The notes below the pieces were generated by a model. That model saw only the letters and a program-made list of their open reading frames with translations. It was not told where the DNA came from and made no database searches. Below are positions 2,726 to 44,740 of a stretch of DNA of 64,000 nt, piece after piece. A program made the translations under genes and the position numbers. The stretch is from Microthyrium microscopicum (lineage: Eukaryota; Ascomycota; Dothideomycetes; Microthyriales; Microthyriaceae): positions 2,243,345-2,307,344 of the forward strand of contig MU004237.1 in the NCBI GenBank assembly GCA_010405405.1, written 5' to 3'. How positions within the stretch are numbered: position 1 is the stretch's first letter; every line of letters starts with the position of its first letter.

Positions 2726-4069
2726 TCAGAGACGAAAAATGCCCAGTCTAGGGCCAGCTGTACGAGAGTTGGTGGTTATTGAACTTCCCAAAGTCGACGT
2801 GCGGCGATCGATTATGCTGTTTGGATCTCGACGGGATTGAGGTGGAAGGAAGTTTTCCCATTCGAGCCAAGGCATCTCGAAAGCTTCGTTGAATGGATCG
2901 TCTCTAGGTTCGTGAACTATTGGCGGTTCGAGTGGATTGATGAGGCGTGGGAGACTTTTGGCTGCGAATATGTTCTGGCGCATGAGGTGTTTCTGCATGA
3001 CTATTGGCGGTGTAAGTGAATTTGTACGTCGGCGTTTAGGCGGTGGCTCTGGGGCTTGAGTGATTGTGCTTGATATAGATGTAGAGATGTAAGAGGGATG
3101 TGTATGTGTGATGGTTGTGGTTTGAGTATTGTCAGATATGGTAGTTGTGGTGATAGATTGTCTTGAGTGTTGCGGATCAGGTGGAAGCATAGCATAGCGC
3201 TTGCGTGATAGTCTCTTGGAAGATTCGGAAGTGGGAGATTTGGACATGACTGGGATCGAATCAAGAGAAATGTCGATGTTGGAAACACCAAGACCATTGA
3301 CGGCGTAATCTTGGGCAGAGGTTGATTGATGAATAGAGGTTGTGAGAGCAGCGGGCGTATGTAACACACCCTCCATTGGATCTCCTTCTATTGATTGTCG
3401 AGTGTTTTCAGTTCCAGTCGTTGGCTGCTCATCTTCTACAATATCTCTTCTCTTCTTGCCACGGCCGATTACTTTTCCTGTAATCTCGCCTTGTTCTCCA
3501 ACTACGCGCTGCTTGGCTTCATCTACCGCAGCTTTTAGGGTCGGAGGCGTCAAGGCATACATTCTCGTCCACATGGCAGCTCGCTTTTCGAAATGTCCGT
3601 ACTCTTCTTCCATCAGCTTTCCTGCCTCACCATTCAATGCGCTGGCTGGATTCGGACAGACAAGTAAGCAACTGATAGTCACAAGAACATCGCGCAAGGT
3701 TAGTTCGGGTGTCCAATCGCGCTTCAAGGTGTCTACACAGACTGCGCCTGTGGTGGGATCAACGTTTGGGTGAAATATCTTGGTTCGAAAGGTAGCAGTT
3801 GGAGCTTTGGCGGGATATGCGCCCGGTTCCATGTGAAGTGTGAGGCGGAAGACACCAGAAGAATAAGGAGTATTATCTGGCCCAGCAAGGAGAACGGAAA
3901 GGACGGTCATATCGGAGGACTCATTCGAATTAGGCGGGAAGAGGTAGTTTGGAGGAAGTCCATGCTTGTGTAGATAGCCATGGTCATTGGCAAGCCGACG
4001 CATGGCTTTTGCCGCCTGTAGACGTGGTTAGAACCTTGCAGTATGGGTGAGGAGTGAATGGCTTACCAT
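2726..4069 (-). CDS. Ubiquitin-conjugating enzyme E2, UBE2S-like, with long C-terminal tail
   Basis: Proposed join: exon 1 is only the ATG (4069-4067), the intron is 4066-4016 (GTAAGC...TACAG, 51 bp), and exon 2 is 4015-2726. The product is 430 residues starting MAAKAMRRLANDHGYL. The UBC fold covers about residues 5-150, with the HPN motif (IFHPNVDPTTG) and the catalytic Cys in GAVCVDTLKRDW. The following LLVCPNPASALNGEAGKLM closely resembles UBE2S, the APC/C partner that extends K11-linked ubiquitin chains. Family knowledge: UBE2S needs a C-terminal Leu-Arg-rich tail to bind APC/C. Here about 270 low-complexity, Ser/Thr-rich residues follow and the protein ends GIFRL. If the ATG-only exon is wrong, translation would start at Met 4003, losing only five residues. 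It is divergently arranged with the TBCE gene. Confidence 0.85.
4016..4066 (-). other. Intron directly after the start codon of the E2 gene
   Basis: Reads ATG|GTAAGC...CTACAG|GCGGCAAAAGCCATGCGT on the minus strand. Splicing joins ATG to GCG GCA AAA GCC ATG in frame, giving the MAAKAMRRL start typical of UBC domains. Confidence 0.7.
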
Positions 4070-17787: not shown

Positions 17788-20700
17788 TCACGACTCAATG
17801 GACCGACCAAATGGAGGCAGCCGTCTTGGAGTGCCATCCACTGTACTGTCCTCGTCATCGTAGAAATCATCAGCACTGAAGCGACCTGTTTCTGCATCTT
17901 CGTCGTAGCCTCCACGTTGCAATAGTGGCGGTGTACGTGGAGGAACACCTCGAAGTGCTTCACCAAGAGATGACGGTCCAGCTGACGAGGACTTGGCCTT
18001 TTCTGCTTGTCGACTAGACATTGATCGGCCAACAACAGCCTGGGATGAAGCTGAAGCTGCACTATCGCGTCGTAGTTCCACGGTATTTGGTGGCTCTGGC
18101 GTTCTTCTCATGTGGGAGGCTGGGGGTGTCATCAATCCCGAGAGGAAGGAAGATGTAGAATTCGGACTGCGTTTGGCAGGGGTGCCACGCCAATCATTGA
18201 GCACTCGTCCTAGTTGCGCAACTCTTGGTGATGCATAGCTTTGGAGGTTGGCAGCGAGGTTACTCGACATGGCAGAAAGTGGCTGAGCATTTCCAGTGCC
18301 TTGATGGCGCTCCTTCTCGTGCATCTCCATCTGAAGACTGGTACGAATGCGAATTGCGGCATTCTGAACAGACTCGCGGTCAAAGTCCTCACGCCCAAGG
18401 AGGTTGATCAGGTCAGAGAGATCATCGACACGAACGCCGAGCAGTTCTCGGAGCCAGCCAATTTCGACATCACGACCTTTGAGAGCTTCGGGGTCAACTT
18501 CACCGACCTGTTGTTCGAGTGCTTCAATGCGAGCTTCGCGCTCTTGTAATTGATCTTGTAGAACATCAATTGACTCTCGCAGCGCCTTTGCCGAAGCACC
18601 TCCTAGATTACCGAACATGGATGGCATGGATGGTAGAACAGCTGCAGGAGATCTTGTTGATTGCGCAGCTTGAGCAGCAGCTTGGGCGGCAGTCTTGGTG
18701 ACTTCGAGCTTTTGATTGAGATGATGTACCTTGTCTTCAAGGAGCTCAATCTTGTTGCTGGCCAAGTTGAGTTGATCTGCGAAATAAGCTTCGGATCGTT
18801 CCTTGTCTTCATAAGCTTGCTCAAGAGATCGTTGACTTTGTTGCTCCATGTCTGCTTGACGCGAAGCATGAGCTTCTCGGAGGAAAGTCTCGGATTGGTT
18901 CTTGTTTTCTATAACATGATCCAGATCGCGACGATGCTGTCTTCGAAGTTCCTCAAGACGTTCTTCAAAGACTTGTCGCTGATCATGAAGAGCGGAAGTT
19001 TTGCCTTCGATCACTTCACGAATGGCATCTCTCTTTGAATCAGCCTCTTGCTCAATGATGAGTTCTTCCTTGGCTCGAGCTGCATCCGCTTCCATCTTTG
19101 CACTTTCCAGATCGACTCGAAGGCGGTTAAGTTCGTCTTCAAGGCCAGCACGAACAATGTTGGCGTGGTTATTTGCTGCATCGATATCCGCTTGCATGAG
19201 AAGACGAGTACGTTGAACTTCGGTTCGAGCCGAGTCACGAGCTTCTTGCCATTCGCGGGCATATTTTTCAGCTGTCTTTTCGTGCTCAGAACTTTCACTT
19301 CGCCATTGGTCAACCTGCTGCTCGAGTTTAGAATTTTCCTTTTGCAGATGCTCGAGGGTGATTGCTGCTTTTTGAGCTTCACGCTCTTTGGAAAGGAGGT
19401 CCTCGACATCTCCTTGTAGCCTATTCTTTTCATGCTGGACATGCTCCAACAAGGCACGCAATTTGGTGTTTTCTTTCATATTTTCGCGTTCTGAGACTTC
19501 CAATCTGTTCATTTCTTGTTCGAAGCGTTCACGAGTGCGAGCTTCTGCTTGAGCCTGCGACTTGATAATTTCGTAACGAGTGCGATGCTCAGCATCCATG
19601 CGTTGCCACTTTGCGCGCTCATCAGCAAGTTTTCCAGTTGCAGAGGCAGTGTCAGCTTGCAATTTGTCCAGACGATCGCGCATAGTTTCGCGAATCCGGA
19701 TAGCTTCCTCGGCTTGGATTTTGAGAGTTCCACTAGCAGCTGCAAGTCTTTCTTTTTCACGGCTAGCATTGTCCATGTCCGCCCGCCACTTGTCGTGAGA
19801 AATGCGGTATTCGTCCAGTGTGGCCTTGAGGGCGACGTTCGTTTCTGATAGTGAAGTGACCTTTACTTGTAGATCAGCACTTGCAGACTCGGCCATTGCG
19901 ACGCGTTGGTCGGCATCTCTGGATTTGTCTTCGAATACGCGCATATGGTCTCCATCATCGCTTGCTGAAGCACGAAGTAATTCCAACTCCTCTTCAGCAA
20001 GTTTGAGTAATCTCTGGCTTTCTGCTTCTTTACGCTCTGCATATTTTCTGGCCTCCGCTTCCTCGGCGATCTTGGCATGAGCTTCAGAATTGCGTTGCAA
20101 AAGTTCTGAAAGAATTGGGTTCTCGTCTTGCATTAAGGTTCGGCTAGATTCTGTTGTAAGAGTTTGACTAGCAACCGCAGATTCTACAGCTGCCTTGATA
20201 TCTTCAAGCTGAGGAAGATTGCTTATATCATATTCTAGTTTGCGACCCATGAGGACGCCTTCCACAGCACGTTGAACATCTTCCGCGGAGAGAATTTGGG
20301 CCGTCGGTACTTGGAAGGCGGATCTCATCTCTTGGACTGCAGCCAGAATCGATGCAGTGGCAACTGTGTCCGATGTGGGTTCGACTACTGGGCGATAAGT
20401 AGCGAGTGCTTCTTGAATGATCAATCTCATCTTTTCATTCTTGCGGTCCCTAACTGGAGAGCGTGACCAAGCGCGTGAGCTATACTCAGGTTCGATTTCA
20501 TCATCCTCATCATCGGCATCGCTGTCCATCGTGGCTCGAGATCTTAAATTGCGGCCAGGTCGTGAAGACGAAATGGTTGACATGGCAGATTCGATAGCCT
20601 TGAGCTGTCTTTCGAGCGGACCAAGACGTTTGCTTAGACTTGAATTGATAACGGAAGAGACATGAGCATCTAGGAACGGTCCACGGGCACGGATTTGTTC

Positions 20701-23700
20701 TTCTTCTCCAGATGAAAAGTCATCCCAGTCGCTGATCGGTACCGTTGGCCCTTCGTTTAATTGGCGAACAGGTGATTCGTAACCAATTGCACCACGACCA
20801 TCACTAAATGGATCTTGAGTTACTGATGCAGAATCCAAGTCTAGGTGGTTTGCAGAGAGTAGGCCACGACGAGGGCTTGGACTTGGAGCATCGCTACGAA
20901 GATTGGCAGGAAGATGTGGTTGAAGAAGTTGCATAGTTGGCATGTCTGTAGGACTCGTTTCTGGCCAAGAATGAGCATCTCGCTCCACGTCAGCTTCTGA
21001 GTTTGACTGGTTGATATGCTGCATAACAGCGTCAATCTCATTGAAGTCTGGCTGTTCCATATCGTCATAGTATCGGACGGATGATGGAAGCTTGTTGGGC
21101 GGCGAAGAAAAGGTCCCTTCCAGGCTCGGAATTTGAAAATCGGCATCAAGACCAGATCTTGATGCGACTGCACTGGATGGTGGCGAGATGAGCTGCTCTG
21201 ATATATTCTGAGCTCGGTCATCTTCATCGGACAAAAACTTGGGGGTAAGCTGAATGCTGTCATCGACATTTTGTTGAACGACAGGAGTATCCGGAGCGCG
21301 AACCGGAGAAATCGGAACAGCAGGAGAAGCATCAAGATGAATCGGTGAATGCTGTGCAGATTCAACTCCATTTGACCTAGGCAAAGAAGACGTTCTGGCG
21401 GGGAAACCGCCTTCAGGTTCCACTGGTAACGGAGAACTTGGAAACAATGGGCTTTCATCGCCGGCGAAAGTTGGCGTAGGCTGAACAAAGGCCTTGCTCG
21501 GAACAATTTCGATTTCCGAGTCAACATGGAGCGGTGCAGTAGGCTCGGAATCTAAGACAGGATTGACTAACGACGCTGGTAGTGGATCTGGATTTGGAAT
21601 GGCAAAGAGAGGAACGTCATCACCATCAGCATCAACCTTGCGCATTCTTTTGGCATTTCCTGCTGCGAGTCGCCCATCTTTGTCAAATATCTCTTCCTCG
21701 GTATCAGTCTTGGCAGAAGGAGGAACGATTGGAACAGCCTTGGACTTCTTGACAGGTTTAGAGAATTCAGTGAAATCAACTCCAGAGAACAGGCGTCCAG
21801 GGGCATCAGAGCTGGAAGTATTAACGCTGCCAAAGGACTTGTCCGGCTCGAAAGCAGGTACGGCAGGATTAAAAACTGGTGCGGTTGGCTTGAGTATTGG
21901 TGCTTTGGAAGCAAAGCTGAACTCTGACTTTGACAAATCTACGCCACCACCAAACCCACCAGCGGTTGGACTGAATTCCGGGGCATTGAGATTGAAAAGA
22001 GTCTTGGTTGGCGTTCCAATAGATCCGGAGCCGATAGAATGTGAGAGTACACTTGACTTTGCTGAAACTATAGAACGAGGAACAAAGTCTTTGACCTTCT
22101 CTGGGTGAAATGCGAAAGCTGAGGCATTGAAGATTGAAGGGTTGAATACAGCAGCAGGATTAGCCCCAGGATTGAACTCTCTTGCAGTAACATTGAGACC
22201 AGAAATCGATGCTTTGGATGAGTGCTGCTTCGCATGCTTGGGCTCAGAGGTTTGTGCCTTGCGCATGAAAGTTGGGTCGTTGTCCCATGGATTTGAGGCC
22301 GTGAAGATGCCCTTGTTCGATGCCATGGTTGGGGGACTACTCATACCGTGTTCGCTTGGATTTGTGTCAATGTCAGAGCTGGCCAGATCAAGGTCGTTGT
22401 AGTTCAATCCATAAGTTCGTCCGACTATAGCAGGAGGCTCCTGGGGTTGTACCTTCTCCACGACTGCCGCTTCTTCTTCTTCTTCCAAAGTGGCGGGTTG
22501 CTCTTGCAACTTCTCCATCATCTTGGGCGACTCCTTCTCCTTTGTCATTACATCCTCAATAACAGCAGGGGCATTTCTCCGCCATTCAGGAACTGCTTTC
22601 GGTGTGGATTCGCGCTCTTCCACTTCAGAGGAGCCCTCTATCGGCGACTTGACATCTTCAACCTTTTGCAAACTTGGCTCGGCCTTTTTGTCCAAACTAA
22701 AGCTACTCTTATGAATGCTTTCTTCCAATTTGGCACTGATATTATGTCGGTGACCAGGTCGAGGATTGAACATCTCTGGCGGAACAGATCGGGTAGCTGG
22801 TACCGGATCCTCCTCAGCTTCAACTTCCAAGACTTCGGCTAGAGTAGAAGCCGGTCTAATAGGCAGTAATTGTTGTTGACGAACCAGTTGTTGTTGCTTT
22901 TGGTGCTGCAATTGGGCAACCAATTCATTTCTCTGTGGAAATTGGAAAGGAGATGTTGAATCAGCCATTGGGTTGAAAGGCGAAATAGGAGATCGCATGT
23001 CTACTGCCCCGCTTGAAACGAGAGGAGAATTACTTGACAATGGAGCATTTTGCATACCAAAAGGTTGTGGTGACCAAGCATTGAAACCCTGTGGACTGAT
23101 GGCTTGTTGGGGGATCATAGGAGGCGATGTAAACATTGATTGTCGATGCATATGCATGCTTTGTCGTGGATTACCCATTGAGGATATGGGCGAAGCAATG
23201 GACCTAGTTGATGTATGATTGGAAGAACCGGGTACAAAACCCATTGGGAAAACATTTCCTCCTGGACCCATCCGTTGACTACCAGCAGATGAGGTTGGAA
23301 GAGGTGGAGAGAATGGAAGACCGGAAAATTGTGACGAGGCTCGTCGAGATAAAGAAGGTTCTGGTGGGTCATCTCCTAAACTGACACCTAGTGCTCTTAA
23401 TTTTGCTTCCTTGAGTTCCCTAACATGATCTTGCCATAGCCTGGGGTTTGGAATTTGAATGCGAGCTTTTCCACTGAATTCTTGAGCTTCGGTCCTGTAA
23501 TCACCCACATCCGGATACACATCACGGTTTTGAGCATAAACAGCTGCCGGTGATTGCTCTTGTTCTGCCGATTGACTCCAGTGTCCGAATCCACGAACGT
23601 CGTATCCTTGATCTTGAAATCTCTTGAGGCGTTCTGCGATTTCTTGTGCGCTCAATGGATACGGCGCTTGACCATCGCCTCCTCTTGGTGGATCCACGGG

Positions 23701-24678
23701 AAGCGCGACCCAGCATGCCTTTCCTTTATGAGTCAATCTCTTCCTAGTCCGTAGTTGTTGCAAACCACCTGCCGAGAGTGTACGTTCGACATTGGGAGAA
23801 GGTGACGGGAGATTGAAATCGAATTGAGCCTGAGAGTGACTTGGAGGTTCGATATGATCCCTGGCAGGTGTCCCACTTGGAGTTGGCTTGCTCATTGGCG
23901 ATGACGCGTATTTAGAAGACTCCATTGCTGAATTTTGAGAGAACAATTGCGGTGGAGTAATATCTTCTTGGCGCAAAGTGCGATTACGCGAGTGTGAACG
24001 ATGCCCGCTAACCTTGCGATTTTGTCCCAACTCTTTTCCTACCAATTTCCCCAGTCGTTGAGAACTAGCTTCCAGATCTTGACCAGTCTTATGATCAGGT
24101 GTACGTTGAACCTTGGAAAAAGACGACAACAAATTCCTTGCTGGAAATTGAGCCGCAATACGCTCTTCAATAGACGGTGCCGAGCCTCGAGGAGTGACTT
24201 GTGAAGGACTCCAACCGGTAGGAGTTGTAGGGCGCGTGGGTGTAACCTCGTACGTACGTTCAAACCTCGACGGGATCAAATGCGACAAGCCGAAAGCGAT
24301 CTGCGGAGACTCTTCCTCGTTTTCGTCCAAACTCAGAGTACTAGAAGCGCGACGATTGGCCCTTTGGTTCGAATGCCTACCCGCTGGTACAACAGACTCG
24401 GGGTAAGGAGATCCCCAACTCGCAGTATAAAAAGTCGCGTCGGATGCGGATTGATGACCCAATGGTGTACGAGGGGTGAAAGGAAGCCTTGGAGGAGCAG
24501 GCAGAGGTGCTATCTCTGGACTGTCTGGACCAAGGGTATCGGTTTCGGAAAGGTTCCCGTATGAATTGTCGTTGTGTGGTGACGATGGTGAATGAAGCTG
24601 ATCGTCAGGCTGATTGATGGTAGCTGAAGCTAGCGTCGGTGGAGACGAAGGCGCCCCAGTTAAGCTACTCGCGGGCAT
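17788..24678 (-). CDS. Giant multi-PAM2 coiled-coil protein, Upa2-like mRNP scaffold candidate
   Basis: Single-exon 2296-residue protein. The N-terminal third is disordered (Ser/Pro/Gln-rich), with one conserved-looking block at about 305-435 (KACWVALPVDPP, GYDVRGFGHWSQ, NPRLWQDHVRELKEAKLRALG). Four PAM2-like motifs cluster at about 826-937: LNVTAREFNP, FNASAFAFHP, FNLNAPEFSP and LKPTAPVFNP, fitting the consensus xLNxxAxxFxP that binds the MLLE domain of poly(A)-binding protein. A long coiled coil spans about 1510-2005, then a second short coil and an EIGWLRELLG motif near 2070, then a Ser/Pro-rich tail. Several N-terminal PAM2 copies, a C-terminal dimerising coil and a GW motif match Ustilago Upa2, which scaffolds mRNPs on moving endosomes. 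Orthology is inferred from architecture only; a cytoskeletal or septal coiled-coil protein is the alternative. Confidence 0.8.
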   Translation of the reverse strand: MPASSLTGAPSSPPTLASATINQPDDQLHSPSSPHNDNSYGNLSETDTLGPDSPEIAPLPAPPRLPFTPRTPLGHQSASDATFYTASWGSPYPESVVPAGRHSNQRANRRASSTLSLDENEEESPQIAFGLSHLIPSRFERTYEVTPTRPTTPTGWSPSQVTPRGSAPSIEERIAAQFPARNLLSSFSKVQRTPDHKTGQDLEASSQRLGKLVGKELGQNRKVSGHRSHSRNRTLRQEDITPPQLFSQNSAMESSKYASSPMSKPTPSGTPARDHIEPPSHSQAQFDFNLPSPSPNVERTLSAGGLQQLRTRKRLTHKGKACWVALPVDPPRGGDGQAPYPLSAQEIAERLKRFQDQGYDVRGFGHWSQSAEQEQSPAAVYAQNRDVYPDVGDYRTEAQEFSGKARIQIPNPRLWQDHVRELKEAKLRALGVSLGDDPPEPSLSRRASSQFSGLPFSPPLPTSSAGSQRMGPGGNVFPMGFVPGSSNHTSTRSIASPISSMGNPRQSMHMHRQSMFTSPPMIPQQAISPQGFNAWSPQPFGMQNAPLSSNSPLVSSGAVDMRSPISPFNPMADSTSPFQFPQRNELVAQLQHQKQQQLVRQQQLLPIRPASTLAEVLEVEAEEDPVPATRSVPPEMFNPRPGHRHNISAKLEESIHKSSFSLDKKAEPSLQKVEDVKSPIEGSSEVEERESTPKAVPEWRRNAPAVIEDVMTKEKESPKMMEKLQEQPATLEEEEEAAVVEKVQPQEPPAIVGRTYGLNYNDLDLASSDIDTNPSEHGMSSPPTMASNKGIFTASNPWDNDPTFMRKAQTSEPKHAKQHSSKASISGLNVTAREFNPGANPAAVFNPSIFNASAFAFHPEKVKDFVPRSIVSAKSSVLSHSIGSGSIGTPTKTLFNLNAPEFSPTAGGFGGGVDLSKSEFSFASKAPILKPTAPVFNPAVPAFEPDKSFGSVNTSSSDAPGRLFSGVDFTEFSKPVKKSKAVPIVPPSAKTDTEEEIFDKDGRLAAGNAKRMRKVDADGDDVPLFAIPNPDPLPASLVNPVLDSEPTAPLHVDSEIEIVPSKAFVQPTPTFAGDESPLFPSSPLPVEPEGGFPARTSSLPRSNGVESAQHSPIHLDASPAVPISPVRAPDTPVVQQNVDDSIQLTPKFLSDEDDRAQNISEQLISPPSSAVASRSGLDADFQIPSLEGTFSSPPNKLPSSVRYYDDMEQPDFNEIDAVMQHINQSNSEADVERDAHSWPETSPTDMPTMQLLQPHLPANLRSDAPSPSPRRGLLSANHLDLDSASVTQDPFSDGRGAIGYESPVRQLNEGPTVPISDWDDFSSGEEEQIRARGPFLDAHVSSVINSSLSKRLGPLERQLKAIESAMSTISSSRPGRNLRSRATMDSDADDEDDEIEPEYSSRAWSRSPVRDRKNEKMRLIIQEALATYRPVVEPTSDTVATASILAAVQEMRSAFQVPTAQILSAEDVQRAVEGVLMGRKLEYDISNLPQLEDIKAAVESAVASQTLTTESSRTLMQDENPILSELLQRNSEAHAKIAEEAEARKYAERKEAESQRLLKLAEEELELLRASASDDGDHMRVFEDKSRDADQRVAMAESASADLQVKVTSLSETNVALKATLDEYRISHDKWRADMDNASREKERLAAASGTLKIQAEEAIRIRETMRDRLDKLQADTASATGKLADERAKWQRMDAEHRTRYEIIKSQAQAEARTRERFEQEMNRLEVSERENMKENTKLRALLEHVQHEKNRLQGDVEDLLSKEREAQKAAITLEHLQKENSKLEQQVDQWRSESSEHEKTAEKYAREWQEARDSARTEVQRTRLLMQADIDAANNHANIVRAGLEDELNRLRVDLESAKMEADAARAKEELIIEQEADSKRDAIREVIEGKTSALHDQRQVFEERLEELRRQHRRDLDHVIENKNQSETFLREAHASRQADMEQQSQRSLEQAYEDKERSEAYFADQLNLASNKIELLEDKVHHLNQKLEVTKTAAQAAAQAAQSTRSPAAVLPSMPSMFGNLGGASAKALRESIDVLQDQLQEREARIEALEQQVGEVDPEALKGRDVEIGWLRELLGVRVDDLSDLINLLGREDFDRESVQNAAIRIRTSLQMEMHEKERHQGTGNAQPLSAMSSNLAANLQSYASPRVAQLGRVLNDWRGTPAKRSPNSTSSFLSGLMTPPASHMRRTPEPPNTVELRRDSAASASSQAVVGRSMSSRQAEKAKSSSAGPSSLGEALRGVPPRTPPLLQRGGYDEDAETGRFSADDFYDDEDSTVDGTPRRLPPFGRSIES

Positions 24679-25540
24679 TCATCAATATCAACGTGTCTTT
24701 TTTTATGTATTTGTATTTTTTGACTCGATATATGACCGTAAATGTAGTGGTGTCGCGCAAACGGCTGTTGGTGATTGACGTGGAAGGGAGCCGCGGGAGA
24801 AATTATGTGACGACACGGTCAAGGGTATTATGAACAGACAGGAAAGAAAAAAGGGTGACGCAAAGGAAGGACTTTTGAGTTAGATCATAATAGACAGAAA
24901 AGGCGACGATAGATACATTGGAGAAAAGACTCTTGTGCACCTAAAGCGGATGTATGATTTTTTTGGAGTATGTTTTGGGTGGTGGAAGGAGAAGCTCTTC
25001 AACAGGGGAAGAGTGAAAGAGTAGAGCGCGCTGAGAAGGAGGTGAGGTTGCAGAAAGCAGGTGCGTTGGCACACAAGGAAAGAGCGACCCAAGCACGGAT
25101 CTCTCCCGCAAAATTTGAGCCACTACTGCCTGATTTGGTCAAGCCTGAGGCACTTCGACGGCCACTGCCCAAAGAGAAAGGAGCATCCCAGCTCACGGCA
25201 GGAACGCGTCAAAAGCATGACTAACGCGTTACCCCTGCATCAGGCCTTGCTTCTTTAGGCTTAAATTACTTTCCTATCGAATTGAATTGTCTGGAGGTCT
25301 GGCTTGCTTGCTTCTCATCAAATTACTGACAGTATTTCTTCCCTGCCGAGCATGCCTCCAAGTCTCGGCCAATCGTGCTCATTTACACTCGATATCGACG
25401 TCAAATCTGATGGCAAATAATATATGACCATGCCCTGTCAATAAAACACTCTTTAATGAACCAAAATCGGCCAGATAAGAGCTTGGAAGTAATATGGTTG
25501 GAGGCCTTATCCATGAACTAGGGGGTTCGTCATCGTCAAA
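24679..25540. promoter_or_regulatory. Divergent promoter region between the PAM2 gene and NPR3
   Basis: 862 bp between two divergent start codons. The only open frames are short ones without motifs. Start-proximal parts are T-rich, as is common in fungal leaders. Confidence 0.4.
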
Positions 25541-28111
25541 ATGCCCTTTACCAACCAGCCATTACCATCAAGCCCGTCTCTCGTAGCCATTTTGCTTGTG
25601 ACCAAAGGTAGAACTGGTCCTCGCCTGGTCTATCATTATCCTCCAAATCCTTCAATAGCATCGTCTGGATCTAGCAGGAATCCAGCATGGTACGGCACTC
25701 CAGGTACCTCAAGCGATTTATCAGATACCTCTGATTCCGACGCAAGTTCCGATAGTGATAGTGGACATGTTGGCGATGATGGAAGCAGTAGAGCTGGTAG
25801 CCGAAGCAGCGGCGGTCGCGGGAGTAGTCGTAGAGATACCGGCTCGGGAAGAAGTGGGAGGACAAGAAATACTGGCCCAGGCGGATCGATCCAGGATGTC
25901 GATGAGGATATGCCCGATCGATCCAAAAACCACATACGGGAAAGAGATGGCCAGAGAGAACAGATGAGGAAAGACAGCTTATCAGAACCGAATCGACAAG
26001 ATGGACACGATGGACCTGAATGGCAGCGAGTTTTGGGCTTCAGTGCGGAAGGCTTAGGGAAACTGCTTGCACCTGCCAGATCTTTCAATAAGCGTAGATT
26101 TGAACTCGGAATTGATCAACTGGTGTTTTTAGGCGCTCCAAGATTCATACGAGATGATGGACTTTGGAAAAAGAAGAGACGCCAAAAGAGGAAAAACCAT
26201 TCCAAAGACACTAGCAATGTCCAGTCTGACAATGAGCTTAGCAAAGAAGTAAGCAGACATGGCTCAATTTCATCGGTGGTTGAACCGAAACCAGGCCCAG
26301 AGGTCGTGTATGATGATGTTATCTATGGACCAGCATACGGCCATGGATTGGGTTCTGACCCATCAGATGTTGGGTCCGAATCAAAGAGCACATCGACGAA
26401 TGGCGTTGGTTCTGAACCAGAGCTTACCATGTTCAATGTTGTATTTGTCTTGAATCCATCAGCTCTGGAGTATCATGATAGAGTTGATGAAATGTATGAC
26501 AATGTCGTCAAGAAGTTTGCAAAGGCATTGAAATTTGCTCAGTCATACAACAACTATATACATGGCGAGTCAAGAGCTATTTGGGCCATGAAAGAAAAAG
26601 CAAAGGAAAATCATACACCAATGTCGAGTCTGTGGTCAACCATAGCTCAGAATTCGTCTTTAGCTAGAGCAATCATGGTCACCTATGACACGATATGTGA
26701 CGACGGCATCGCTCATGTCAATCTAGGTCGGGATTTTGATACTTCTTTCCAGCTACCTCAACCAGTTTCAGTCTCTTCTGTTGGTACTCCAAACGAGGCT
26801 CAAATGCCAGGCTTATGGCTTACAACTGCAACACCATGGGAAGACGATGAAACTGATTCACTTTTAAGTCCCCATTGTGCGCTTTTGCTTCTCGAGGATG
26901 ATGACGTTCTACTTGAAGAAGTACAAAAAGATGCGAAAGAGTTATCAGCACCACTGGCGCATTTCATTAGAAACTTGACGCCAGAAAAATCTCTCTTGAA
27001 AGTGGCGGCAAAATCTCAACTTACTACCAAAGATGCGCAACATCTCGCCAGGCACTTGATATACTGGCGTAGAGCAAGGGCAATTCCACCCTTGAGAGAA
27101 CGAGACACTTACATCGTATCACCCAATGCCAACATGAGAAATCTAAAAGAGGCAATACCTAATTTCGCAGCTCATTTTCCTCTACTTCCATCACTCCCAA
27201 CAATTCTCCAACAACTCTCCGGTATTCCACGGCCATGGTCTCACTTCTTCCCTAGTCGGGACCACAGAGACAAGTATATGATCGTTCTTGCATGGCTTAT
27301 GCGGCACGGTTGGGTCACCCAGCTCCGAACATTTGGCTGGATCAGGGTCAGTCCCTCGGTCAAATTGGCTGTAGCCACACGTCTGGATCTCGAGCGAAGA
27401 AATCCTCGCTCCACAACCCGAAGCATTGGAAGTTCGGGCTCGCCATACATCAACAGCACGTACGATCTCGATGCATCAATCTCCACCATTCGCGCTCCCT
27501 CACTATCACCATTCCGGCCCTCTGCGCCATCAAACAATGCGTCGCCCATGCTAAGTAGCACTTCTGCTCATGATCACGCCGACGATACAGCCAGTGTCCA
27601 CAGCGATCGCACAGCTATCACAGTCGTCCCACCATTCTCACCCCTCTCCCGTCCTCATAACGGTCCACCACTTCCACGCACTACGCCATTGACTCCGTTG
27701 GCCATCGCGTCACACACCAACGGCTCTGGTAGCGACCACGAATACTCGCCGACGGCAGCATATCGCTCAAGTCCCATTTCACGACCTACCTCAGCGGCAT
27801 CAGCAACAGAGACAAGTAGCACTGGCCTCGAATCCGCTACACATGTACGAGATGTGTACAGCACTTCCATCATCCATAGCCCACAGGGCGCTTCTGCAGT
27901 AGAGTTGAAATGGATTGAGTATATCGGTTCTAGCTTTAGTGAGGAAGATAGTGAAGCGAAGGAGCTTTGGCCGACATTGCTGAAATACTTTGATGGGAAA
28001 CATGCTTTTGAGGAGATATATGTGAGAGAGGGGTTGAAGAAGAGAAAAGTTGCGGCTGTTTTGGGTCGTTTGGCGAGCGCTGGATTGCTGGTTAGTGTTA
28101 AGCATTGGTGA
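25541..28111 (+). CDS. npr3: Npr3, nitrogen permease regulator 3 (GATOR1/SEACIT subunit)
   Basis: Single-exon 856-residue protein. It starts with the longin-type strand-helix SLVAILLVTKGRTGPRLVYHYPP (about 13-35). An acidic/Ser-rich insert (about 45-150) interrupts the domain, as in fungal Npr3. The core resumes with VLGFSAEGLGKLLAP and LGIDQLVFLGAPRF (about 165-205), then TMFNVVFVLNP (about 297) and a helical region with RAIMVTYDTICDDGIAHVNLG. The C-terminal part has a Ser/Pro-rich linker (about 630-770) and ends in a winged-helix-like LWPTLLKYFDGKHAFEEIYVREGL...VLGRLASAGLLVSV. Family role: with Npr2 and Iml1 it forms the GAP complex that turns off TORC1 at the vacuole when amino acids run short. 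Confidence 0.93.
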   Translation: MPFTNQPLPSSPSLVAILLVTKGRTGPRLVYHYPPNPSIASSGSSRNPAWYGTPGTSSDLSDTSDSDASSDSDSGHVGDDGSSRAGSRSSGGRGSSRRDTGSGRSGRTRNTGPGGSIQDVDEDMPDRSKNHIRERDGQREQMRKDSLSEPNRQDGHDGPEWQRVLGFSAEGLGKLLAPARSFNKRRFELGIDQLVFLGAPRFIRDDGLWKKKRRQKRKNHSKDTSNVQSDNELSKEVSRHGSISSVVEPKPGPEVVYDDVIYGPAYGHGLGSDPSDVGSESKSTSTNGVGSEPELTMFNVVFVLNPSALEYHDRVDEMYDNVVKKFAKALKFAQSYNNYIHGESRAIWAMKEKAKENHTPMSSLWSTIAQNSSLARAIMVTYDTICDDGIAHVNLGRDFDTSFQLPQPVSVSSVGTPNEAQMPGLWLTTATPWEDDETDSLLSPHCALLLLEDDDVLLEEVQKDAKELSAPLAHFIRNLTPEKSLLKVAAKSQLTTKDAQHLARHLIYWRRARAIPPLRERDTYIVSPNANMRNLKEAIPNFAAHFPLLPSLPTILQQLSGIPRPWSHFFPSRDHRDKYMIVLAWLMRHGWVTQLRTFGWIRVSPSVKLAVATRLDLERRNPRSTTRSIGSSGSPYINSTYDLDASISTIRAPSLSPFRPSAPSNNASPMLSSTSAHDHADDTASVHSDRTAITVVPPFSPLSRPHNGPPLPRTTPLTPLAIASHTNGSGSDHEYSPTAAYRSSPISRPTSAASATETSSTGLESATHVRDVYSTSIIHSPQGASAVELKWIEYIGSSFSEEDSEAKELWPTLLKYFDGKHAFEEIYVREGLKKRKVAAVLGRLASAGLLVSVKHW

Positions 28112-33737: not shown

Positions 33738-36700
33738 CTAAACAAGCATCTTTGCTTTCTGTTTGTCGTCTAGACATCTCTTGATAGCTATGAAGCGTTA
33801 GCAAATGTCTCAATCCAACTGACGGTCCATTCTTACCTTCGCAAGTCGTTCTTGCGTCACCGAAAAGCATTTTCGTGTTTTGCATGAAGAACATGGGATT
33901 CGGTACGTCCGCTATTTTGGAGTTAGTAAACCATCTCTTGAACTTTGTGCTCACTTACCATATCCACTGCTCATTCCTCTCTTCATTACTATAACCTGTT
34001 TGCTCTTCCATGCCTTCAAGACAGGCATGCCAGCAATAGCGCTTCCCTTCTCCAAAGCTGCAGGATTGACAGTGTCGTTGGCTCCAATGACAAGAGTCAA
34101 ATCCGTGTCGGCGAAATCGTCATTGATCTCGTCCATTTCGTGGACGATATCGTATTCAACTCCAGCTTCAGCCAATAGTACGTTACATTGACCTGGCATA
34201 CGACCTGCGACTGGATGAATTGCGAATCGAACGTTGATACCACGGCTGCGTAGCATGGTAACAATGTCCGAGAGTGCGTATTGGGCTTTGGCAACAGCCA
34301 TACCATAGCCAACGACAATAATAACTGATTCGGCATCTCCTAGAGCATCTGATACTTCTTCTACTGAAGTCGGTATAACTTTGCCTTCCACTGCAGGTCC
34401 AGTAACTTGTGTTGTTTCTCCAATGCCTCCAAATAGGACGTTCGTTAGAGAACGGTTCATGGCAACGCACATGATGTAGGAAAGAATGGAGCCACTGACG
34501 CCTATAAGAGACCCGACTGTTGTTAGAAGAGGGTTATCGAGCATGAGACCTTCAGCGAGGAGTGCAAATCCAGAGTAGGCGTTCAAAACTGTAATGACGA
34601 CGGGCATATCTGCTCCACCAATTGCTGAAGTGGTGGTAAATCCTTTGAGAAAGCTCAAAGTTGCACTTGCTGATAATGCAAGGGCAGCAATCATTGGTGA
34701 GCCCGGTGCTAGTGTGAGAAAAGCGCCCAGTGTACCAACATTAGCGGCAAGCATACCACTATTGATAAGATGTCGACCTGGTAGTCGCAGTGGCTTCGAA
34801 GACATTCGACCTGCGAGTTTGGCAAAAGCTACAATAGAGCCTGTGAATGTGATACCTCCAATGACGACTCCCAGGTATCCAGTAACCATGTGAAGGGTTG
34901 AAATATCTTGAATGTGCATCATTATGCTTCCGACACTGGTCAAAACTGCTGCTAGACCGACGACCGAATGCAATGCCGCAACAGTTTGTGGTAGGTCCGT
35001 TGGGGAAATTCTTCGACCAATAACCATTCCGATTATACTTCCAATTGCGGCAACGCCACCGAATTGAGCCAACACTTCAGGTGAGAACCCGACAGCTGCC
35101 AGAGAAGCCAAAATACCAGAGCCAACTCCTAGGATTCCTAGGAGATTACCTTGTCGCGCGGTATTCTGAGCAGCCAGGCCGGATATAGAAGATATGCATA
35201 GAACACTGCTAATCAAATAACCTGCTTGAACAAGACCTGCCATGCCAGTACTTGCTGCTGCAATAAATCCACCGCCAAAAACGAGTCCGGGAATTGCGTA
35301 TAGCCATGGATACTCTGGAGGATCCGTTGGTCTTTTGAACATGTCAAGCATTCTCTTTGTAATGACAAAACCTCCTGTAATGTTGACGAATGCCAATAGA
35401 GCGGAGACTGCGCCGAATGCCTGAGGAATTGTTTCTGGTAGATATCCACCGCCCATGATAAAGAAACCCCCAATACCAACCATACCAGAGATTGCATTTG
35501 TCACACTCATTAGTGGAGAATGTAAAGCTGGTGAGACTCCCCAGACAACACGATATCCAATCAATCCAGCGAGACCTGTAGTAAACAAGTTGCTCATGAA
35601 TATTGGTCCGGTAATCTTTCCAAGTGCAACTAAAGTTCCCATACCAGCAGTAACGGTAGTGACTTCACGAACTTTTCGTTGCCATGGTGTCAGTGCTACT
35701 ACTTCTTCGACTTGCTCTATAACAGGCTGGACTGCAGGCCGTGGAGGAAGTGCAGGTCGAGGAGCAGGTGGTAGTATTTCTCCTTTATGAGTAACGATAG
35801 AGCCTCTGACAACTTCATCTTCCAAGTCGACTCCAAATTGTTTCTCTCCAAATTGAATTGATAAGAAGAATTTGGTGATGTTGTTGGAATACAAATTTGA
35901 AGCTTGAGCGGGAAGTCTACTTGGTAGATCGGTATATCCAATGACTGTCACTCCATTCTGTATGGCGATTTCTCCTGGAACGGTAAATTCGCAGTTGCCA
36001 CCGGATTCTGCTGCAAGATCAACAATGACAGATCCAGGTTTCATGGCATTGACCATGTCTTTGGTGATCAGTTTTGGTGCAGGCTTGCCAGGAATCATTG
36101 CTGTAGTGATGACTATGTCGACGTCCTTGCATTGGGCCATGAATAATTTCATTTCCGCGTCAATGAATTCTTTTGACATTTCTTTACTGTATCCACCACT
36201 TGCTGCACCTTCTTCTTTGATTTCGACTTCGAGAAACTCAGCTCCAAGACTTTGAACCTGTTCGCGTGCAGCTGATCTAGTATCAAAACCGCGAACAATT
36301 GCACCAAGTCTTCTAGCCGTGGATATTGCGCTTAGTCTGCAGACTGTTAGTGATATATGTTAGAGCCCTTCGATCCAGTGGCACTCACCCTGCAACACCT
36401 GCACCAATAACAAGAACCTTTGATGGGGGTATCTTTCCAGCAGCGGTAGTTTGACCAGTAATGAATCGACCAAAGTGATTGGAAGCTTCAAGTACTGCCT
36501 TGTATCCAGCAATATTCGCCATTGAACTCAAAGCATCAAAAGTCTGAGCTCTAGAGATACGAGGGATCTTTTCCATGGCAAATGTTGTCGCATGACGACC
36601 GGCAAGAGCCTGAACAAGATCCTTATTTTGATCTGCATTCACAAAGGAAATGACGACAGCTTCATCTTTCAGACCGGCAACTTCATTGTTGTCCTTTGCA

Positions 36701-37203
36701 ATACTTGGTGGTCGAACTTTGAGAACAACATCGCTTTCTGACCAGACAGTACCGGATTTTACCACTTTGGCACCAGCATTTTGGTAGGAAGTATCAGAGA
36801 ATTGTGCATAATCTCCAGCACCTTCTTCAATCAAAATGGTTCCGATCCCGTTCTTAACCAGTAGAGCCACATTTTGAGGCGTAAGAGCTACACGTCGTTC
36901 TTGAGGATATGTTTCCTTTGGTACTCCCACGGTTATCCCTGTATACGGGGCTGTTGATAGTTGACGTCTGTTGTGTAGCCGGGAAGATACAGGTACAGTC
37001 CAGGATTGTAATGATTGGGGTCGCCTTGTTTGGGACCCAATAATTTTCGGTCCATGACAGCGAGAGTCCACACAGCCAGTCGATCCGGAGAAATTTCTTT
37101 TGATTCGTTGTAGATGGGACAAGCTTCCTTTGGTGGACGATCCAATGGACTTGAGATTCCCGAAAAGGATAAGAGACGTTCGCCTCACTCCAATGATATC
37201 CAT
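33738..37203 (-). CDS. NAD(P) transhydrogenase, proton-translocating, mitochondrial
   Basis: Four exons: 37203-36389, 36336-33959, 33911-33837 and 33787-33738 (introns 52, 47 and 49 bp); 1105 residues. The start [11 protein letters not shown] gives an Arg/Ser-rich presequence typical of mitochondrial import; the frame is also open to a Met at 37257. Domain I (AlaDh/PNT-like, NAD site) starts at [18 protein letters not shown] (about 105) and has [13 protein letters not shown] across intron 1. Domain II is a long run of membrane helices (about 560-900). Domain III binds NADP(H): [42 protein letters not shown]. Two small 3' exons supply the needed end ([24 protein letters not shown]). Family role: proton-driven hydride transfer from NADH to NADP+ in the inner membrane, feeding NADPH for redox defence. 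Confidence 0.95.
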
Positions 37204-37960
37204 CTTGAGTATCGTTTCATTTGCAGTGGGCCGGGGAAACGCGGGTGAGTCTGACAATCAGATTGGCTGGACTATGCTCCGATAGATCCCTTGCCTTGGA
37301 TCCGACGTATGACAGGACTTGAAAAGGCGATAGACGCGCCGTCAATGTCTCCGATTCGAGAAGCGAACGCGTGGTGGAGTCGGAGGCTGAAATTGGTATC
37401 AACCTGCGGCTACATGTGTGAGTGTGCGATGGAGGTTGACTTTCAAGTCAAAACAAAAGGACACCTCGGCGGTTGAAATCACACGACTCGCACTATTGTG
37501 TCAAAAATCCATAGTCATGACCATAATTTGTTGCTTTGTGGTCTGGAGGCTGATTCGCTGGTTGTGCGGGGAATACGGGTCCATCATTGATCCATGTGAC
37601 GGTTAACGGCAATTCTATTCCGTTCTCTACGGTATCTAGTTCATATACAAATTTAGACTCATATTTCAACATAAATCATTGATCTTCCCATTTGGTACTT
37701 TGAACAATTCTATGGCTTCGAAGTCTCATCCGCAGAAATAGCAAATAGCTTAAAACGTGGACATGTCGGCTGGTAGCATAAGAGTAATGTGCTAACCTTT
37801 AATTCTTGTATGAAAGGTGGGGTATTCCTTGAGGCTCTGCTGATACATCATTCTACTGTTTACTTACCATTACCGTGAGTGATATTGCCAAACAAAGAAA
37901 TAGGAGGCATAATTGTGGTAGCGAAGAGCGTATAACAGTCACCATTCGAGGCGACTAGAA
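37204..37960. other. Intergenic region between divergent genes
   Basis: Promoter side of the transhydrogenase and of the NACHT-partner fragment gene. No motif worth calling. Confidence 0.4.
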
Positions 37961-43298: not shown

Positions 43299-44740
43299 TC
43301 ACTGAGCGTACATCCACTTCTCAAATTCTCCCTCATTCAGATCCTTTGGTATCATTGCTTTCGTCGATTTGGATTTTTTTGAGTGTAGACCGAAGGCCAT
43401 ATGGCTCGCCGGTCGCATGGAATAGCGCTTCATCTTCTGCGTCTCTGGACTATCTTCGCCTTCACAAATGACTCTCGCTTCGTATGCTTTCTGGGCAAAG
43501 ATGCTTGCTCTTGCCTCATCACAATTGGCAACGCTGACCTGAAAAGCATCGTAGTAAACCCGAGCATTGAGTACCACCGCTGCGTCGCTGAATTCCTCTT
43601 CCAGTAATTGAACCATATCCTTGCACGCTTTCAAACATTCGGTTCTCTTACCACGTGTGCTAGCGAGCACCATAATATTGCCGTCAAGGCGTTCGATTGT
43701 TTGACGACGCCGATCGCTGGCTTCAAGCAAGGAAGGTGGGAACAGGCATGTGCGACATTTGCACTGGAAACCAAATGAAGCCTTCAATGATGTTTGGCGA
43801 GCACTAAACGTGCTTCCGTCGTTGTATGAGATAGTAATTTCCTCTCCAGCTTCGATATCACGGATAGCGTGGATTGTCTCATGCTCCATCTCACCATTCC
43901 AGTTGTTGTGAGCATTTGGAATGCAGCTACTATTGATGAGCGACGCTATTGGATACACACAGCCCAGTGCTGACCCAGAGCCACAAGGCAGAGCATTTGT
44001 TCTGAAGATTCCGCCAAAGGGTCTCTTACCGGGGAAGTTGTTATGTAGTGACAGGAATTGACGTTGGTTTGCTTTTGTCATTGCCTTCAGCATACTACCA
44101 AGAAATGCTTCCAGGTCATCCAGCGGCATGGGTCCCGCTCGTAGGAGAGGTTTTTCGCACAAGATTCGAGTGCCTCGAGGAATGACAGAATGGGCAATGA
44201 GGCTCCTGCCTTTCCCTGGAATTTTTCTGATCTCAAAAAGAGAGGATGCGAGGTCTGCCAAAGTAGGATCGCTTCCATCCTTAGGCTCGATGATACCAGC
44301 ATTGGGCTCTTGGTCTGGCTGCTAAATTCTTAGCCTGTAGTGATGTGAATGTTAATGTGACATACCTCTTCATACGATTTGAACGAGATCCAGACAACGT
44401 CCCAGCCGTAATGGCCGCGTATCTCAGCACTTTCGGACCATCTCCACACACGATGACCAAAACGCACTTCTGCAAGTATAGTGATATCTGCGAGGTACTT
44501 TTCGACGTTTCCACACTGGGAGCCCGAGACATTCGCGCTGAACCGTAGGAATTTGTGACCTTCGAAAGGAAGTCTAGGTCGTTCTCCAACCTCGAAAATG
44601 ATGTAATTCTCTTTGACTTTGACGATTTTGTCATGCTTGTATTGTTCTTTGATGAGGTCAATGAAACGTCTCCAATTCTCTCTGTCTGTAGCGCCCTTGG
44701 ACAGCGGAGGAACCATATCGAAACCCTTATCGACACCCAT
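43299..44740 (-). CDS. SET-domain protein with fungal N-terminal MGVxxGFDMVP module
   Basis: Two exons, 44740-44366 and 44321-43299, with a 44-bp intron using the TTTAG|CAG acceptor; 465 residues. Residues 1-125 (MGVDKGFDMVPPLSKGATD, then LPFEGHKFLRFSANVSG) match a domain seen in many fungal SET proteins. A linker leads to the SET domain: FEIRKIPGKGRSLIAHSVIPRGTRIL (about 155-180), TNALPCGSG, CVYPIASLINSSCIPNAHNNW (about 245-265), IRDIEAGEEITISYNDG, and post-SET FGFQCKCRTC. The usual NHSCxPN signature reads NSSCIPN, with His replaced by Ser, which may weaken cofactor binding. A helical C-terminal region follows (about 310-465). Not close to the other SET protein in this window. The start could be the Met at 44746, two codons upstream. 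Confidence 0.83.

Follow-up and report, generated by a model that had tools for sequence, protein, structure and literature searches.

A probable PxdA orthologue in Microthyrium microscopicum with a cluster of four canonical PAM2 motifs

On the minus strand of a 64,000-nt stretch of Microthyrium microscopicum DNA (hereafter, the window), we identified a gene at 17788..24678 that encodes a 2296-residue protein with four PAM2 motifs in its N-terminal arm and a long, probably coiled-coil region in its C-terminal part. The protein is very probably an orthologue of PxdA, a judgment drawn from the reading frame and from architecture rather than from alignment. As a working model, we favor the reading that this PxdA orthologue of a filamentous ascomycete is a two-ended endosome adaptor, in which the C-terminal coiled coil would serve peroxisome hitchhiking and the PAM2 arm would hold Pab1 mRNPs.

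The gene and its surroundings

The frame comprises 2296 codons, starts with ATG, and has no internal stops. Its GC content by codon position is 0.61/0.47/0.40, and a simple scan revealed no intron-like elements within it. The encoded protein matched no Pfam family at E values up to 10 and, searched as a whole, no PDB sequence at E values up to 1. Viral contigs were scanned three times, with the full-length protein, its N-terminal block, and its distal helix block as queries, and yielded no relative, and a scan of prokaryote contigs returned a single locus, in a large bacterial ORF that looks like a relaxase/helicase. We rejected this locus as a chance match because it rests on one shared octapeptide that was itself a search pattern. 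Just upstream, a five-codon ORF (ATG AAT GCC CGC GAG TAG; 24665-24682, minus strand) overlaps the start codon of the long frame, an arrangement that suggests leaky scanning or translational control of the latter.

The divergent neighbor of the gene encodes NPR3/NPRL3, a GATOR1 subunit (25541-28111, plus strand), with the two start codons 863 bases apart, and this adjacency might serve to mark PxdA loci by synteny. Upon a Pfam search of 20 other frames of the window, 11 matched at E values up to 0.001, all to ordinary gene families, and Rfam yielded no matches over the 64,000 nt. Pfam placed a DUF7730 protein at 419-2014, a protein with a ubiquitin-conjugating-enzyme domain at 2729-4027, and a SET-domain protein at 43302-44321 (all on the minus strand). 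A gene for NAD(P) transhydrogenase (AlaDh_PNT and PNTB; 33954-37257, minus strand) is apparently interrupted by a short intron near 36335-36388.

PAM2 motifs in the N-terminal arm

The N-terminal arm (residues about 1-1520; 20119..24678, minus strand) is proline-rich and, as judged from its composition, probably disordered. Proline makes up 12.2% of residues 1-1320, whereas residues 1321-1520 are intermediate, with 4.5% proline and low-confidence helices, one of which is 45 residues long. The two arm stretches that we tested for a heptad signal (residues 100-580 and 700-1180) had none. The arm also contains a tryptophan-containing block (residues 298-439; 23362..23787, minus strand), which surrounds a block at residues 305-435 that had been singled out in the preliminary description of this DNA. 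No Pfam domain was found in residues 298-439, and an AlphaFold2 model of residues 291-443 was uninformative (mean pLDDT of 38.6).

The four PAM2 motifs, all encoded on the minus strand, are LNVTAREFNP (residues 828-837; 22168..22197), FNASAFAFHP (residues 850-859; 22102..22131), FNLNAPEFSP (residues 895-904; 21967..21996), and LKPTAPVFNP (residues 929-938; 21865..21894). They were located by motif search and evaluated against shuffled sequences and with a PDB profile. The published PAM2 consensus is xxLNxxAxEFxP (PMC9249222). Compared to its core, LNxxAxEFxP, an asparagine stands at the second position in three of the four motifs, and AxxFxP is present in all four.

We quantified the significance of this cluster by shuffling the whole protein (20,000 times), residues 1-1320 (20,000 times), and the local 201 residues (100,000 times), with expressions that were composed after the motifs had been seen, yet were modeled on the published consensus. 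The relaxed expression [LFIMV]xxxAxxFxP matched four times, against shuffle means of 0.12 (whole protein), 0.11 (residues 1-1320), and 0.05 (local 201 residues); four matches were reached by a single one of the whole-protein shuffles and by none of the shuffles of residues 1-1320. For the strict expression [LFIMV]NxxAxxFxP, the three observed matches were never attained in any of the three sets (whole-protein mean of 0.004, 0/20,000). The bare core AxxFxP occurred five times, a count that was attained by 4/20,000 shuffles of the whole protein, 8/20,000 of residues 1-1320, and 0/100,000 of the local residues. Among the 589 stop-to-stop frames of at least 50 residues in the window, the relaxed match was confined to the frame described here. 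The PAM2 motifs are thus well beyond chance, and the earlier claim of a 2296-residue frame with four PAM2-like motifs in about 110 residues is confirmed, with an exact span of 111 residues.

A profile built from four 16-residue PAM2 peptides was searched against 177,635 distinct PDB sequences (chains of at least 20 residues). At E values up to 10, it retrieved only two matches, both of them PAM2 peptides: superPAM2 (8smo_B, E = 6.3e-5) and PAIP2 (1jgn_B, E = 0.083). A single 22-residue PAM2 peptide retrieved no PAM2 chain from the PDB, but only two RNA polymerase II CTD sequences (E = 2.3 and 2.4), so a single motif is too short for such a search. Further PAM2 chains exist in the PDB, for example that of PAIP1, and these were absent from the matches of the four-peptide profile. 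Together with the failure of the single peptide, this means that the PDB profile test has good specificity but limited sensitivity.

The region is also rich in FxP tripeptides, as 7 of the 12 in the protein fall within residues 828-950 (123 residues), and 7 FxP per 110 residues was not reached in any of 20,000 shuffles of residues 1-1520. This richness lends some plausibility to the notion that the motifs are look-alikes, which arose in a disordered region rich in Pro and Phe through low-complexity drift or simply by chance; this notion overlaps with the other alternatives below and is compatible with a PxdA orthologue. We consider it extremely improbable, because none of the 100,000 shuffles of the same 201 residues reached four relaxed matches, and because six viral capsid proteins (E = 0.95 to 2.4) and no PAM2 chains were retrieved when a control profile was built from four of the protein's eight remaining FxP sites. 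Three additional FxP sites, at residues 845, 865, and 943 (22138-22146, 22078-22086, and 21844-21852, minus strand), lie among or just after the four motifs and are perhaps PAM2 copies that are weak or have decayed.

In Ustilago Upa1, two kinds of motif are distinguished: PAM2, with FxP, binds Pab1, whereas PAM2L, which has an acidic run, an FVYP core, and FxxP spacing, binds to Rrm4 but not to Pab1 (PMC9249222, PMC4466420); the Rrm4-type core is given as three acidic residues followed by FVYP (PMC4466420). All four motifs described here are of the FxP type, as in Pab1-binding PAM2. A PAM2L core was found nowhere in the 2296 residues: F.YP does not occur, and none of the ten FxxP sites has such a core. 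This agrees with the reported lack of Rrm4 in ascomycetes (PMC7550108). By their sequence, the motifs are canonical Pab1-type PAM2 and not Rrm4-type PAM2L, and the predicted partner is accordingly Pab1, rather than an Rrm4-like protein. The affinities cited for PAM2-MLLE pairs range from 0.2 to 40 uM in KD (PMC9249222).

The C-terminal helical region and the PxdA layout

The main helical region spans residues 1521-2002 (18673..20118, minus strand), as judged from composition, a heptad test, and an AlphaFold2 model. It contains 0.2% proline and 46% charged or Gln residues, and its heptad hydrophobic power lies ~5 SD above that of shuffled sequences (0/2000 as high). A distal helical module, supported by the heptad test and the AlphaFold2 model, follows at residues 2028-2125 (18304..18597, minus strand), contains GRDVEIGWLRELLGVRVDDLSDLI, and has a heptad power ~3 SD above shuffles (10/2000 as high). 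In both regions, however, the power at a period of 3.6 residues nearly equals that at the heptad period (0.323 versus 0.339 for residues 1521-2002, and 0.516 versus 0.531 for residues 2028-2125), and the test therefore cannot separate a coiled coil from another amphipathic helix. Single 42-residue windows along the protein passed the 99% threshold in just 9% and 14% of cases in the two regions. Single-sequence AlphaFold2 modeled long helices over the C-terminal region with low to moderate confidence (mean pLDDT of 59.2), including distal helices at residues 2028-2058, 2067-2095, and 2101-2125, with the helical stretches totaling ~550 residues. Residues 1521-2002 are predicted to be helical and probably form a coiled coil. 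The coiled coil of about 500 residues that had been proposed earlier holds as regards helix, heptad periodicity, and a nearly proline-free stretch, and is weakened by the nearly equal strength of the 3.6-residue period.

This layout closely resembles that of PxdA from Aspergillus nidulans, a protein of 2236 residues described with an uncharacterized N-terminus (1-1465), coiled coils CC1-3 (1466-2115), and a conserved stretch within CC3 (2033-2058) (PMC9882315). Of 33 fungal species searched, every one of the 15 Pezizomycotina was reported to have a putative PxdA homologue, whereas no other clade had any (PMC9882315). When compared by described layout with PxdA (A. nidulans AN1156; A. fumigatus Afu1g11450), the present protein is similar in length (2296 versus 2236 residues), in its arm (about 1-1520 versus 1-1465, the position of the "uncharacterized N-terminus"), and in its coiled region (1521-2125 versus 1466-2115). 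The distal module is placed like CC3, and its separate helix at residues 2067-2095 lies in a place similar to that of the conserved stretch at 2033-2058, by position only. A PxdA point mutant, R2044P, is said to exist and was not used as evidence here. The absence of a recognized domain is shared as well, as the N-terminal extension of PxdA homologues is described as having no discernible conserved domain (PMC9882315). One mismatch concerns the extent of the coiled coil, which totals 167-307 residues by prediction in PxdA homologues (PMC9882315) versus the ~550 helical residues here, two figures that come from different methods and are not directly comparable.

A further likeness is provided by a 2026 preprint, which mentions in a single sentence "PAM2L motifs" in the PxdA N-terminus (PMC12991151). 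The term differs from what we find, namely canonical FxP-type PAM2 and no PAM2L core; if it is meant literally, then either the present protein differs from PxdA in this respect or the partner is a different one. The sentence also bears on the possibility that the gene encodes a different large coiled-coil scaffold of Pezizomycotina that is not PxdA and yet carries PAM2 motifs. Since the homology to PxdA is architectural and coiled-coil layouts are easily shared, such a scaffold has to be weighed, but we regard it as decidedly unlikely, given that length, boundaries, and the place of the distal helix all agree with PxdA and that PAM2-like motifs were independently reported in PxdA (PMC12991151).

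Upa2, Pab1, and a possible endosome adaptor

The preliminary description had read the protein as an analogue or distant orthologue of Ustilago maydis Upa2, for which four Pab1-binding PAM2 motifs in a dimerizing scaffold are described (PMC12852828, PMC9249222). A true distant orthologue of Upa2 that was kept in ascomycetes would account for a long and largely disordered protein that has four PAM2 motifs and probably a coiled coil, in keeping with the four PAM2 motifs and the dimerization described for Upa2 (PMC9249222). Set apart by description, the two proteins nevertheless differ. The C-terminal GWW of Upa2, which is named as crucial for endosomal binding (PMC9249222), has no occurrence anywhere in the 2296 residues. 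The late GW motif noted earlier, EIGWLRELL (residues 2072-2080; 18439..18465, minus strand), is indeed present, but by motif search and AlphaFold2 model it lies inside the predicted helix 2067-2095, 216 residues before the protein end, and is not the C-terminal GWW of Upa2. Furthermore, Upa2 and Rrm4 are stated to be missing in ascomycetes in a paper that cites another for this point (PMC7550108), and the distal helix suits the place of the CC3 stretch of PxdA. We thus judge orthology to Upa2 to be very improbable, while an Upa2-like way of working is reasonable in view of the multiple PAM2 motifs, their Pab1 type, and the probable coiled coil.

Upa1 of U. maydis is likewise an endosomal adaptor that bears PAM2 (PMC4466420), but it has ankyrin repeats, FYVE, RING, and two PAM2L motifs (PMC9249222, PMC4466420). 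None of these features was found in the 2296-residue protein.

Ataxin-2/Pbp1, PAN3, eRF3, LARP4, and GW182 belong to families that are expected to have characteristic domains, and they differ in this from the present protein, which matched no Pfam family. Their likeness to it lies in the consensus LNxxAxEFxP (PMC9249222).

In the two-ended adaptor that we favor, the C-terminal coiled-coil region would carry peroxisome hitchhiking on early endosomes, as is reported for A. nidulans PxdA. This C-terminal region of PxdA is, we assume, also the part that itself docks on the endosome. The four PAM2 motifs of the arm, which appears disordered by sequence, would bind the MLLE domain of Pab1, and dimerization would provide as many as eight low-affinity sites, whose avidity would be enough to keep poly(A) mRNPs attached to endosomes as they move. 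The protein would thereby perform the Pab1-binding share of the job of Upa2 without being Upa2.

Two published observations speak to the two ends of this model: PxdA is located on early endosomes and is required for peroxisome hitchhiking via its coiled coil in A. nidulans (PMC9882315), and, in Sordaria, GUL1 and Pab1 are described to co-shuttle in a manner similar to Rab5-positive endosomes (PMC7550108). A two-ended adaptor fits such a Pab1/GUL1 shuttle in fungi from which Upa2 and Rrm4 are reported missing. Caution on mRNP carriage is warranted, since Upa1 and Upa2 could dispense with their PAM2 motifs in reported Ustilago tests (PMC9249222, PMC4466420).

A PxdA orthologue could also use PAM2-Pab1 binding for a purpose other than transport, such as ribosome recruitment for local translation, stress-granule partitioning, or regulation of its own mRNA. 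PAM2 motifs do serve varied roles, including translation termination, silencing, and mRNA control (PMC12852828, PMC9249222), and deletion of pxdA is reported to alter secondary metabolism as well as the expression of genes that respond to red light (PMC12991151). With PxdA residing on early endosomes (PMC9882315) and Pab1 moving like endosomes in a related fungus (PMC7550108), transport is the simplest reading, and we hold a non-transport use to be unlikely. Going beyond the two-ended adaptor, PxdA may be the missing endosome-to-mRNP adaptor of Pezizomycotina, one that captures Pab1 directly through its canonical PAM2 motifs and thus bypasses Rrm4, unites the hitchhiking of peroxisomes with that of mRNA in a single protein, and takes the place of both Upa1 and Upa2 in ascomycetes. 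We put this forward tentatively, as a conjecture that may well prove wrong.

PxdA is a known kind of protein, and PAM2-like motifs in it are already in print; what is added here is the motif type, canonical PAM2, and the prediction of a partner. The preliminary description had proposed that the protein would place multi-PAM2 hyphal mRNA transport outside basidiomycetes, and the novelty of this is partly pre-empted by the mention of PAM2-like motifs in PxdA (PMC12991151). The literature that we searched, mostly without subscription papers and thus weak evidence of absence, contained neither a Pab1-binding test of PxdA nor a statement that its motifs are canonical PAM2.

The distinction between FxP and FxxP matters, as it predicts which partner the arm would hold, Pab1 and not an Rrm4-like protein. 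A PAM2-bearing PxdA could moreover help explain the changes in light response and secondary metabolism upon loss of PxdA (PMC12991151). As to the link between mRNPs and endosomes in ascomycetes, the passages on Sordaria shuttling name none (PMC7550108), and a protein of the PxdA type that bears four PAM2 motifs of the Pab1 kind would provide a concrete, testable candidate for it.
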